Source of the DNA: a virus
Direction: 5' to 3' (one strand)
DNA: 24,153 bases
Virus record (IMG/VR): IMGVR_UViG_3300006802_000559
Coordinates: 1 to 24,153 of that record
A model generated the notes under the pieces. That model saw only the letters and a list, made by a program, of their open reading frames with translations, ran no database searches and was not told where the DNA came from. A program made the translations under genes and the position numbers. Every line of letters starts with the position of its first letter. Position 1 is the stretch's first letter. Shown here one piece after another: positions 20,804-24,153 of the stretch.

Positions 20804-22263
20804 TACCAATAACTCCCCATAGTTTCATCAATAAACTCTTCTCGGCGATCACCACTAGGACGATCCCTAAGAACCCAATCAGGCAAACCAGAGTTAGGTT
20901 TATCATCAGGAGTATACTCTCCAAGCAGAGCACCAGCACAACGAAGCGCAATCTCCACCGAATCCAAACAGTCATCCTTAGGTTTGCTAAGACTAGAATC
21001 ATAATTGACCCACTCGTCAATAAAATCCCGATGCTCCTTCTTAATCTTCACCTTACCGATTCTAAACAATGGACTCATGGCAAGAATGCGCTCCCACTTC
21101 TTGCCCTTCGCAAAAATTGGAACAATAGGAGGCATTGAAGGTAATCGTTCAGCCTGCTGAACCAGCGCAGCCTGATAAGCATTCGACTCAATGCCGATAA
21201 TTTCAGGCGTATAATTAATATAATACTCTTCAATTTTCTCCAATTGTTCAGCGAACGGGATACGCGCCGCAAACTGCTCTAACAAGAACACTTGATTAGA
21301 GTCAGAGACACCGACGATACTGATAACGAACCTGTCGCCCTTCCCGCTCATACTAACCGCAGGGTCTACGCCCATATACTTACGAAGTTTAAGCGCATTA
21401 CCCTCAGAATCCTTCAAATCATCCACCTCATAATACTTTAACCACTCTCCTGCCAAGTCGCGGCCAGCCATGCTATCAAAAGCGGCGCAATACTCTTGGT
21501 TAAAGAGCAAAGGATGATACCTCTGCTTCACATACTCCCATTCTTTCTTAGAAAAGTAAGGATTATCAATGCTACGATACTCTACACGCGCATTATTCTC
21601 ATCAGCCAAGGCTTGTTTTGACCAGAACTCGTCATAAAACCAGTTCTTCCCATCAGGAGTCGTTGTTGTAATGAGCATACCCTGCTTATCAGAAAGCGAA
21701 GGACGGGTAACGAGCCAAGCCTCCTCACTCTTAATGAATGCTGCCTCATCCATCCACAAGATATCAAGGCCCGCACCACGCAAAGACTGCGGATCTTCCG
21801 CCGATTTGAACTCAACAAGGCTACCATTAGCAAACTCATAACGCAAATCACCACGATTCTCCTTAACATCCTTACCAATAACAAGCCCCGCATCAATAAT
21901 CACCTTACGAAACGTCAAATACGAAGGCCTACCCACCTTATACGAAGCAGACAACGCCCAAACCCACAAAGGATCATCCCTATCCGTACCATGAAGATCC
22001 TTATGAAACTGCTCAGGAAACAAACAATAAAACAAAACCTCCCAAGCAGCACTCAAAGTCTTACCACCACGACGCCCCGCAACCAAATGCCTAAACCGAA
22101 CCAGCAAATCCTCATTCGCATTAGCATGAAACAACGTCTGCCAATAATGCGGCAAATACCCAACACTAAGAAACCAGCCAAACTTCTCAGGAAACCGCGC
22201 AACCATCCCCGCCACAAACGCCTTATCAGCACTAGCACCCTTCTTAAAATTAAAATCAGGCAT
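20803..22263 (-). CDS. terL: Terminase large subunit
   Basis: A 486-residue packaging motor. The ATPase has a Walker A motif AGRRGGKT (62-69), Walker B LDILWMDE (166-173) and a coupling motif TTTTP (199-203). The nuclease part is RNase H-like, with acidic residues in GVDPAV (Asp300), GIESNA (Glu359) and KPKDDCLDS (about 428-435) as probable metal ligands. It translocates DNA into the prohead through the portal and cuts the concatemer. I choose ATG 22263, which overlaps the TGA of the zinc-finger gene (TGATG) and is 5 nt from GGGAG; a preceding TTG is too close to that site. All key motifs are intact. Confidence 0.95.
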   Translation of the reverse strand: MPDFNFKKGASADKAFVAGMVARFPEKFGWFLSVGYLPHYWQTLFHANANEDLLVRFRHLVAGRRGGKTLSAAWEVLFYCLFPEQFHKDLHGTDRDDPLWVWALSASYKVGRPSYLTFRKVIIDAGLVIGKDVKENRGDLRYEFANGSLVEFKSAEDPQSLRGAGLDILWMDEAAFIKSEEAWLVTRPSLSDKQGMLITTTTPDGKNWFYDEFWSKQALADENNARVEYRSIDNPYFSKKEWEYVKQRYHPLLFNQEYCAAFDSMAGRDLAGEWLKYYEVDDLKDSEGNALKLRKYMGVDPAVSMSGKGDRFVISIVGVSDSNQVFLLEQFAARIPFAEQLEKIEEYYINYTPEIIGIESNAYQAALVQQAERLPSMPPIVPIFAKGKKWERILAMSPLFRIGKVKIKKEHRDFIDEWVNYDSSLSKPKDDCLDSVEIALRCAGALLGEYTPDDKPNSGLPDWVLRDRPSGDRREEFIDETMGSYW

Positions 22264-22400
22264 CAATGCTCCCTATGAGAACCACACTTCGGACACTTAG
22301 AATAATAATGAGGATTATCCAAATCACAATGATGACAATACCAAGGCTCCTTAGGAACATCCTTAATACGCCGCTTAGGTTGAACATTAGAACTAAACAC
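22263..22400 (-). CDS. 45-residue RanBP2-type zinc-finger microprotein
   Basis: A short gene with clear signals: AAGGAG, 5 nt, GTG start, and TGA overlapping the terminase ATG. The product has a basic N-terminus (about 1-19, QPKRRIKDVPKEP), then W-x-C-x2-C-x3-N-x6-C-x2-C (Trp20, Cys22, Cys25, Asn29, Cys36, Cys39). This is exactly the RanBP2-type zinc-finger pattern, which in known proteins binds single-stranded RNA or protein partners. Coupling to terL suggests a packaging or late-expression role. The function in a phage is unknown to me; it may be a simple zinc ribbon that matches the pattern by chance. Confidence 0.8.
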   Translation of the reverse strand: MFSSNVQPKRRIKDVPKEPWYCHHCDLDNPHYYSKCPKCGSHREH

Positions 22401-23035: not shown

Positions 23036-23203
23036 TACGACCACTCCTTCTGCGCCGAAACCATAACACTCCTCCACAATAGAAAAAATAACCCTCCATA
23101 TATAACAACGAACGAAAACACAAAAATGTAACATTTTAATTCAAAAGTGCTAAAAATATTTGTAGTCCATTGTATATATAGTGGATGGTCAGGACGGGGG
23201 ACT
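23036..23203. promoter_or_regulatory. AT-rich divergent control region (no confident promoter)
   Basis: Between the divergent late and early genes, the left part is AT-rich and unstructured. On the minus strand TTACAT and TTATAT, 20 nt apart, precede the C1q-like gene by about 60 nt and are only a weak promoter candidate. On the plus strand TATATATA at 23173-23180 could be a -10 box, but no -35 is seen at the right distance. The late genes may use a phage-specific promoter that cannot be recognised from one site. Confidence 0.3.
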
Positions 23204-23300
23204 CGGTATGTATATACCGTATTGTAATATTTTACAAGAGCCTTAGGAGCCTACCCGGGTATCCTCCTTTGGAGGATCGATTTTATTATAAGCCCCTCTT

Positions 23301-23324
23301 ATACTACATACTAGTATGTAGTAT
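23301..23324. repeat. Perfect 24 bp palindrome
   Basis: Half-site ATACTACATACT followed by its exact reverse complement, centred on CTAG. The lack of a loop fits a symmetric protein site or a DNA cruciform as well as an RNA hairpin. Confidence 0.95.
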
Positions 23325-23341
23325 TACTATCAGCCCCTATA

Positions 23342-23371
23342 GTAATATATTATATATATATAATATATTAC
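23342..23371. repeat. Perfect 30 bp AT palindrome
   Basis: Half-site GTAATATATTATATA followed by its exact reverse complement; only the outer pair is G-C. Such a sequence melts and extrudes easily. It could be an origin-type unwinding element, a cruciform or a dimeric protein site. Confidence 0.95.
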
Positions 23372-23426
23372 ACATACTAACTCTACAATGTAGAGTTAGA
23401 ATCTTTTATAGTACCATAAGTCTTTG

Positions 23427-23448
23427 TTATCTCTAGTACTAGAGATAA
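23427..23448. repeat. Perfect 22 bp palindrome
   Basis: Half-site TTATCTCTAGT followed by its exact reverse complement, centred on GTAC with CTAG on both sides. Confidence 0.95.
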
Positions 23449-23543
23449 TACATAATCCTAGTTTTACTAGGATTAGTGCTAGTTTAGTATCATCTAGAAT
23501 AGATGATACTGTTTGACACTTTAGTTCCTAAAGTGTCATTGTT

Positions 23544-23608
23544 CTATCTATTCTCTTATCTAGAACTACTGTGCCTTTGGCAAGTAGTTCTATAAGAGAT
23601 ATAGATAG
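23544..23608 (+). repeat. Compound long hairpin (~29 bp)
   Basis: Stem segments from outside in are CTATCTAT, TCTCTTA, TAGAACTACT and TGCC, each matched on the other side in order, with small bulges (a T at 23600, TC at 23559-23560, G at 23571) and loop TTT. It is the longest stem of the chain. Confidence 0.9.
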
Positions 23609-23663
23609 GTTCTAGTCTCTCTCTCCTATGAGAGAGATACTAGGGATTTCCGCCGAGTTTCCC

Positions 23664-23728
23664 CTCTACTTTCTTAGAGTTATCTTTCTTCGAACGAAGT
23701 GAGAAGAAAGAGAACTCAAGAAAGAGAG
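23664..23728 (+). promoter_or_regulatory. Leader hairpin just upstream of the first plus-strand gene
   Basis: CTCT, CTTTCTT, GAGTT and CTTTCTTC (23664-23691) pair with GAAGAAAG, AACTC, AAGAAAG and AGAG (23703-23728), with single-base bulges and one 2x2 internal loop; the apical loop is 11 nt. The right outer arm includes the purine-rich AAAGAGAG that serves as ribosome-binding site for the GTG at 23734. Folding would hide this site, so the hairpin may restrain translation. Confidence 0.75.
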
Positions 23729-23733
23729 AGATA

Positions 23734-23907
23734 GTGACCGACGACCAAATTTGCAAAGTTCTCTCCGAGATGAACATTCCTCTGGAATGGATCTGGAGAA
23801 ACTTTGAGAGCATTCGCTCTCTTTCCTTCTCCTCTGCTGAGGAGATGGAGTTCTCGGAACTGATCGGAGATTGGTACTTCTCCGATCTGGAAGATGGAGT
23901 TGCCTGA
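23734..23907 (+). CDS. 57-residue protein, first gene of the rightward module
   Basis: GTG follows GAGAGAG after 3-5 nt, and the frame runs to TGA at 23905-23907. The protein begins MTDDQICKVLSEMNIPLEWIW and is acidic, rich in Ser, Glu, Phe and Trp; it looks helical and soluble, with no cysteine pair or membrane segment. I do not recognise it. Codons differ from the minus-strand genes (more C- and G-ending). At least five hairpins lie inside the gene, and their arms (TCC/GGA, TTC/GAA, CTC/GAG) may explain its Ser/Glu/Phe bias. The stop codon is inside another hairpin. Coding status is supported by the start site and by the similarly organised gene that follows. Confidence 0.65.
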   Translation: MTDDQICKVLSEMNIPLEWIWRNFESIRSLSFSSAEEMEFSELIGDWYFSDLEDGVA

Positions 23908-23920
23908 GCCGAAGGCTCAG
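23904..23920 (+). terminator. Hairpin over the stop codon of the first plus-strand gene
   Basis: CTGAGCC pairs with GGCTCAG around loop GAA; the TGA stop lies in the left arm. No T-tract follows, so a true intrinsic terminator is doubtful. It may instead be an mRNA stability or processing element. The GAA triloop closed by C-G is known to make unusually stable mini-hairpins in single-stranded DNA. Confidence 0.5.
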
Positions 23921-23934
23921 TCAAAGTAGAAACC

Positions 23935-23949
23935 CAAACCGGAGGTTTG
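23935..23949 (+). promoter_or_regulatory. Hairpin holding the ribosome-binding site of the second plus-strand gene
   Basis: CAAACC pairs with GGTTTG around loop GGA. The Shine-Dalgarno GGAGG spans the loop and the start of the right arm, 6 nt before the GTG at 23952. Its G's are partly buried, so translation could depend on opening this stem. Confidence 0.7.
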
Positions 23950-23951
23950 CT

Positions 23952-24153
23952 GTGAAAACTGTCAAGATGCTGGAGTCGGCTACTGCCGACCAGATCGCTG
24001 AGATCAAGTCCATCCTTGGGATGGAGGATGCTCCGAAGGAGGAGACGAACATGGATCAGCCGAAGGCTGAGAAGATCAAGTGCAAGTGCTGCGGCTTCCT
24101 GAAGAAGCCGAGGAAGGTCCTGCGGGAGACGGGGCTGTGCGGGGTCTGCACGG
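23952..24153 (+). CDS. Zinc-ribbon protein, 3' end cut by window
   Basis: GTG with GGAGG 6 nt upstream opens a frame that stays open for 67 codons to the window edge. The first 40 residues are helical and charged (SATADQIAEIKSILGMEDAP). Then a basic CKCC (Cys44, Cys47) and a CGVC (Cys63, Cys66) form a CxxC-x15-CxxC zinc ribbon with Lys/Arg-rich spacer, so nucleic-acid binding is likely. Almost every codon ends in C or G, in sharp contrast to the leftward genes. In phages such proteins act in early transcription or replication control; which one applies here is unknown. The rest of the protein is missing. Confidence 0.75.
   Translation, partial: MKTVKMLESATADQIAEIKSILGMEDAPKEETNMDQPKAEKIKCKCCGFLKKPRKVLRETGLCGVCT

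Follow-up and report, generated by a model that had tools for sequence, protein, structure and literature searches.

A chain of covarying hairpins at the head of a phage gene block that runs on into coding sequence

The head of the rightward, non-structural gene block of an uncultured virus carries a chain of short, perfect hairpins, ~900 bases in length, that is a selected structure beyond chance palindromes: compensatory changes among relatives exceed both sets of controls, and where the chain runs on into coding sequence its hairpins are kept at matching positions with compensation, through synonymous as well as amino-acid changes. The stretch analysed (the window; positions 1 to 24,153 of IMG/VR record IMGVR_UViG_3300006802_000559) is a 24-kb fragment, and the chain lies at the divergent junction facing the terminase, heading a block of ~16 kb. 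Our main reading, that the head of the first early transcript is a hairpin chain acting in cis, is one that we favour by a narrow margin (probability ~0.55): the structure is shown, as are its compensated conservation, its restriction to a single transcript start and its association with a zinc-ribbon gene, whilst the sense-strand mRNA as the selected molecule, the role in cis and binding by the zinc-ribbon protein are inferred without RNA data.

The window encodes a terminase, a P22-type portal and a major head protein, together with a 1844-aa protein that has no family match. The gene for the terminase large subunit (20806..22266, minus strand) is the first in the leftward late block and was used as the anchor for collecting relatives. 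Near-complete relatives measure 42–46 kb and are organised in two divergent blocks, with the late genes in one direction and DNA polymerase, helicase/primase-like, Rad52-like and ArdC-like genes in the opposite block; our term "early" for the rightward non-structural block is inferred from this gene content, there being no timing data. Among isolates, those nearest in capsid protein are Arthrobacter phage Jasmine, Microbacterium phage Shocker and Cellulosimicrobium phage DS1 (28–31% identity), and hence the host is likely to be an actinobacterium, although this is not shown and the host was not identified directly. A genome scan for the host was uninformative, as only contigs from Dehalococcoidia and Caldisericia MAGs matched and their terminases were distant. 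Clusters of 2–4 tRNA genes (Leu, Asn, Lys, Gln) were observed in the early block of some relatives (L083:11973-12333, L042, L027, L064).

A preliminary description of the window, made from the sequence alone, had claimed at least ten inverted repeats in 23754–24110 within two plus-strand genes, about 270 base pairs counted by hand over 23204–24110, pairing of over half of the bases and no comparable density in the late genes. We found 11 perfect hairpins with a stem of ≥5 bp in 23754–24110, 10 of these with ≥6 bp, compared to means for the latter class of 0.71 (maximum 4) in dinucleotide shuffles of the same stretch (n = 300) and 0.77 (maximum 2) in late-gene windows of equal length (n = 62); the claims on the number of repeats and, as far as hairpin density is concerned, on the late genes therefore held. 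The minimum free energy (MFE) of 23204–24110 was −367 kcal/mol versus −245 ± 5.5 kcal/mol for shuffles (z = −22), the MFE structure contained 322 pairs rather than 270, and 14 hairpins exhibited a stem of ≥7 bp, against ~0.3 per 500 nt in the remainder of the window. The claim on the paired fraction held as well (71% in the chain), yet since late mRNAs reach up to 67% in MFE folds this fraction alone is not diagnostic: what stands out is how densely short, local, perfect hairpins are packed. Chance or base composition as the cause is ruled out by the dinucleotide shuffles together with the codon shuffles presented below.

Immediately upstream of the chain lies a promoter-like block (23130..23200, plus strand; family consensus ..AAAAATATATGnAtAGTAATTATATATATGTGG-n12-AACGGGGGTA..) that is kept in 12 sequences, ~450–500 nt upstream of a hairpin with a CTAT loop, and that does not match the sigma-70 consensus; this region is probably where the rightward transcript starts, its promoter role being inferred. 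The leader chain (23204..23733, plus strand; ~530 nt) consists of ~11 short hairpins with tri- or tetraloops and G-poor 5′ arms: across 126 distinct hairpins of the family, G accounts for 5% of the 5′ arms and C for 23%. A composite long hairpin (23549..23610, plus strand) with the conserved tip GTGCC-TTT-GGCA is followed by the anchor hairpin (23612..23643, plus strand), whose CTAT tetraloop is invariant and whose 8–14 bp stem covaries family-wide; the anchor was present in all chain-bearing members checked, with a freely varying stem. The ribosome-binding region of the first gene sits within the last leader helix (23664..23729, plus strand), in which CTCTAC/TTTCTT pairs with the purine-rich sequence AAGAAAGAGAGAG before ORF1. 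The tip of this helix reads UUC-GAACGAAGUGA-GAA, with tandem G.A pairs around AC-GAA-GU, and its motif CU-GA-AC-GAA-GU-GA-AG is kept in most members, though not in all; model R1 scores the window copy of the tip helix at 118 bits, this copy being a training sequence.

Amongst 80 terminase relatives, a hairpin cluster occurred at the same place in most of those with enough upstream sequence, and the order of the hairpins is kept across relatives whereas the arm sequence is not. In an alignment of 19 leaders (A3), double compensatory changes were observed in 53 of the 63 predicted pairs, versus 35.5 in the shuffled control and 16–28 in the slid control; the fraction of paired cells was 93.5% (72% shuffled, 41–52% slid) and the covariation score 0.634 (0.242 shuffled, ≤0.19 slid). 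The composite hairpin (A3 helices 1–3) showed double changes in 19 of 24 pairs and the CTAT hairpin (helix 4) in 14 of 16, with the helix that pairs with the ribosome-binding region corresponding to helices 5–7. The same alignment also served to predict the structure, and neither the counts of double changes nor the covariation score were corrected for relatedness.

The chain continues into ORF1 (23734..23907, plus strand), a folded coding sequence of 57 codons with a GTG start and a TGA ending at 23907, for which we found no family match and no convincing homologue in relatives; ORF1 as a homologue of the N-terminus of longer zinc-ribbon proteins was unsupported. The hairpin CTGAGCC-GAA-GGCTCAG (23904–23920, plus strand) lies across the ORF1 stop codon and a further hairpin (23935–23949) directly 5′ of the start of ORF2 at 23952, in line with the earlier claim that repeats cross a stop codon and ribosome-binding sites. 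ORF2 (23952..24153, plus strand) comprises the first 67 codons of a zinc-ribbon gene that is truncated by the contig end, and contains coding hairpins at 23975–23990, 24009–24025, 24056–24070 and 24092–24110 (plus strand). The hairpins were compared to those in codon shuffles, with synonymous codons permuted within each ORF such that protein and codon use remained unchanged (500 shuffles for MFE, 1000 for hairpin counts). In case of ORF1, both measures were significant (MFE z = −4.3, 0/500; 3 hairpins versus 0.53, P = 0.010), whilst in case of ORF2 the hairpin count was (4 versus 1.13, P = 0.007) and the MFE was not (z = −1.0). Of 16 ORFs, comprising the two of the window and 14 ORF2 homologues, 13 showed a hairpin excess at P < 0.05: the homologues in L222, L223 and L237 contain 9, 10 and 8 hairpins against ~1 in codon shuffles, and those in L234, L239 and L241 show no significant excess. 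The late genes tested by codon shuffle displayed no hairpin excess, with one capsid segment exhibiting a low MFE.

Comparison of the homologues reveals how the coding hairpins are kept: GGCTTC/GAAGCC, found in the zinc-ribbon gene of most members, is GGCTTT/AAAGC in L237, and GGTAAC-GAA-GTTACC of L222 corresponds to GATAGTAAC-TCT-GTTACTATC in L237 and to GACGGT-GAA-ACCGTC in L228, despite amino-acid changes; AATGCC-GAA-GGCATT is shared. The dense part ends within or just after the zinc-ribbon gene in relatives, the contig of the window itself not being extendable rightward. The preliminary description had interpreted this as a coding region shaped by folding, a claim supported by the codon shuffles and by the compensated arms of relatives, and had stated that it would be refuted if codon shuffles folded equally well or if relatives lacked arms at the same places: the former is not the case by hairpin count (the MFE of ORF2 not being significant), nor is the latter. 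Its claim that protein composition mirrors the arm triplets fits tripeptides such as IED, TEG and VED, encoded as X-GAA-X′ mirror codons, and those hairpins that persist despite amino-acid changes, without a statistical test of composition.

Homologues of ORF2 were identified in 10 of 20 records searched, and their alignment reveals four conserved Cys residues and a basic C-terminus. The AlphaFold model of the zinc-ribbon protein is weak (mean pLDDT 67.5) and gave no fold match, and the protein shows a weak match to L37Ae (E = 0.036). That it binds RNA is conceivable, but remains a guess from the Cys residues, the basic residues and this weak match, inferred from sequence alone. Across the 21 loci with >3 kb upstream of the terminase, presence of the chain and of the zinc-ribbon gene coincided completely (both present 14/14, both absent 7/7). 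The loci without either are L014, L017, L018, L062, L063, L078 and L080. Neither is found in L014, whose terminase shares 84% identity with that of the window, whilst members at 72–75% carry both, and the pair thus behaves as a module that is gained or lost; the existence of chain-less relatives also means that the chain is not essential.

Several known types of element were considered and rejected. A search against Rfam gave no match at gathering score in the window, L006 or L071, only the tRNAs in L042, and otherwise sub-threshold matches of chance type; a DNA search of isolate genomes with the leader returned no match. An array of intrinsic terminators does not fit, as the stems are A+T-rich and the T tracts broken: the 7 weak matches, versus 0.8 in shuffles, are in excess because hairpin density is high. 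A CsrA-type GGA sponge is not supported by the leader loops, which are TTT, CTAT, TAT and ATA instead of GGA. Hairpin promoters of the N4 type were rejected given that stems and loops vary freely and that the hairpins lie within transcript and codons, although a role for a virion RNA polymerase was not directly tested.

As to which molecule or process is under selection, the triloops of the window's family are strand-biased, with GNA 25 versus TNC 3 in the coding part and TTT 16 versus AAA 3 in the leader. In A3 stem cells G-U outnumbers A-C by 56 to 27, part of which is alignment noise, and amongst single interruptions in the 126 distinct leader hairpins by 6 to 1, with G-U pairs rare overall. 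Between close relatives, paired sites diverge by 3.0% and unpaired sites by 5.9%; the pairs compared are not independent, and the slowing of stems is reversed in 2 of 8 close pairs (the L023/L043 pairs). Because stems are slower, triloops and arms are strand-biased, the structure ends at the ribosome-binding site and only one transcript start is affected, we consider selection on sense-strand RNA a better fit than foldback mutation, an inference made without RNA data. Thus, of the two causes that the preliminary description had put forward, folding at the RNA level is favoured over foldback template switching; the latter is not excluded and could have helped to create the arms.

According to our main reading, the chain would be the 5′ part of the first rightward early transcript of an uncultured, actinophage-like podovirus, and this transcript would fold during transcription into a series of independent short hairpins, mispairing being avoided by 5′ arms that are almost G-free. 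The ~530-nt structured leader would enclose the first gene's ribosome-binding site and may keep it closed until the chain is acted upon, perhaps by the zinc-ribbon protein; further downstream, the chain would carry on within the coding part of the first genes, with codon and amino-acid choice adjusted to keep the hairpins. Its roles may be to shield the 5′ part of the first mRNA from host endonucleases and to gate translation, and the zinc-ribbon protein, encoded directly downstream, may bind the hairpins and so close a control loop. Several observations speak against this reading: ORF2 alone is not significant by MFE and three members lack a significant coding excess, G-U pairs are rare for a selected RNA, the antisense strand of the chain folds almost as well (z = −19.5), the promoter-like block has no sigma-70 match and chain-less relatives exist.

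An explanation that we consider unlikely is that the leader is cut to yield a trans-acting noncoding RNA (decoy or scaffold), with the coding hairpins as spill-over. The ornate, conserved layout of the ~530-nt leader with its conserved junctions speaks for it, and its patchy presence among relatives would suit an accessory function; however, there is no terminator-type U run between the CTAT hairpin and the gene, the ribosome-binding site lies inside the last helix and the coding hairpins are themselves conserved. Also improbable is selection on DNA, single-stranded or extruded, with the hairpins recruiting, for example, replication, packaging or RNA polymerase proteins. In its favour, the stems are almost purely Watson–Crick with few G-U pairs, C-GNA-G triloops are exceptionally stable in DNA, divergent junctions are common origin sites, and a second virus family with such a chain, described below, exhibits strand-balanced loops (GNA 24, TNC 37) and no G-U excess; against it stand the strand bias of triloops and arm composition in the window's family, the end of the structure on the ribosome-binding site and the additional tip hairpins at start codons. 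We find it very doubtful that perfect arms are continually generated and repaired by foldback template switching, a process that creates quasi-palindromes, with selection playing little or no part. In its favour, the arms are indeed perfect and many of the double changes are transversions, which cannot proceed via G-U, but concerted copying should not slow the stems, whereas paired sites change half as fast in the (non-independent) close pairs, and the phenomenon is limited to one transcript start with conserved layout, loops and pairing of the ribosome-binding site. Equally remote is the idea that the leader works like a put site, binding RNA polymerase so that termination is prevented throughout the early block: although the chain directly follows a promoter-like block and heads a ~16 kb block, its arms are free to vary and it runs on into coding sequence, and known put sites consist of two hairpins and are much shorter than this leader.

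Returning to the chain as a cis-acting mRNA structure, its closest known counterparts are the start-associated repeats of actinophages: the SAS/ESAS of Cluster K mycobacteriophages (PMC3203893), those of Microbacterium Cluster EF alongside the 18-bp inverted repeats of Cluster EG (PMC7302621), and the CR3/CR4 stem-loops of Cluster M (PMC7953290). Shared with these are inverted repeats that directly precede the ribosome-binding sites of non-structural genes and occur several times per genome, hosts of actinophage type and a suspected role in translation start. However, start-associated repeats are short, of conserved sequence and one per gene, whilst most stems of the chain covary without shared sequence and ~11 hairpins form one leader that runs into coding sequence. 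The part most like them is the tip hairpin (GAACGWAGTGA) found before further early genes: in L009, L030, L054, L059, L071 and L079 there are 2–3 such hairpins per genome, and after each one come a purine-rich stretch and a start codon. This conforms to the criterion for start-associated repeats that several inverted-repeat copies in the non-structural region should lie immediately before ribosome-binding sites. In these six genomes the tip hairpin CU-GA-AC-GAA-GU-GA-AG has a covarying inner stem and the base ACTCTCTA/TAGAGAG, directly 5′ of the early-gene ribosome-binding site. The conserved 13-bp SAS sequence is absent, the elements ending in TAGAGAGATAAAGGAG or similar, unlike GGGATAGGAGCCC or GGGAAAGGACCCC.

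In that short-range pairing pervades coding sequence to an extent not expected from codon shuffles, the chain resembles the genome-scale ordered RNA structure (GORS) of RNA viruses, but there the whole RNA genome is structured, whilst here discrete perfect hairpins at conserved positions occupy the head of one dsDNA-phage mRNA only; no GORS-like case in a dsDNA phage was found in the literature searched, a search that was not exhaustive. The chain shares with GOLLD, ROOL and OLE (PMC12286853), which are large structured RNAs associated with phages, its length, ornate structure, strong covariation and occurrence in environmental phage genomes, yet it lacks an Rfam match and, on our reading, is an mRNA leader, a linear chain of simple hairpins leading into a gene. 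RNA thermometers and autoregulated leaders sequester the ribosome-binding site, and here too the purine-rich ribosome-binding region before the first gene is paired, in the last helix; unlike in those leaders, ~ten more hairpins precede this helix and coding hairpins follow, and no switching partner was identified. Structured leaders and start-associated repeats are thus already known, and what is new is a structured leader that extends into genes, its function being inferred: to our knowledge, no dsDNA phage has been described with a covarying hairpin chain that heads a gene block, runs into the genes and is kept through synonymous and amino-acid changes. Judged from the paired compensating mutations, RNA shape would here be selected even within coding sequence, and if the RNA reading is true, leader and zinc-ribbon gene would constitute a compact, testable module and each genome would offer a natural set of ~ten orthogonal hairpins.

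A second virus family exhibits a comparable arrangement: in the 63998 nt contig L162/L244 and its relatives L245–L248, a hairpin chain of ~5 kb runs through coding genes at a divergent junction. A 350-aa ORF of this family contains 26 hairpins versus 2.6 in codon shuffles (MFE z = −9), and several hairpins are kept between proteins of 48% identity, with others gained or lost. That it is unrelated to the family of the window is indicated by its phrog_38 terminase and by a family-B polymerase whose nearest counterparts, at 22–23% identity, are those of haloviruses; its strand-balanced loops render the RNA argument weaker there. This second, unrelated family hints that the pressure on the first viral mRNA is a general one, which would be relevant to the survival of phage transcripts in the face of host nucleases and RNA-targeting defence. 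A bolder reading, which we regard as no more than possible, is that unrelated DNA viruses have independently armoured the head of an early mRNA with hairpins that override codon and amino-acid choice, as a general counter-measure against a threat from the host at the RNA level, such as an RNA-targeting defence or an endonuclease.

The second family was found only via the 15-mer tip CTGAACGAAGTGAAG, and the frequency of such chains therefore cannot be stated. A search of all viral contigs with this 15-mer returned many unrelated contigs, often in a hairpin context; since the search demanded the exact sequence, its conservation in those contigs is not evidence. Within L101–L220, the 15-mer with complementary flanks was seen in many unrelated contigs, sometimes as in-frame SERSE within coding sequence, and it may represent a widespread stable hairpin or a REP-like element. 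In L131 (9750 nt), the tip-hairpin positions are mirrored on both strands and the contig is apparently its own reverse complement, which could reflect either an assembly artefact or a hairpin-ended genome.
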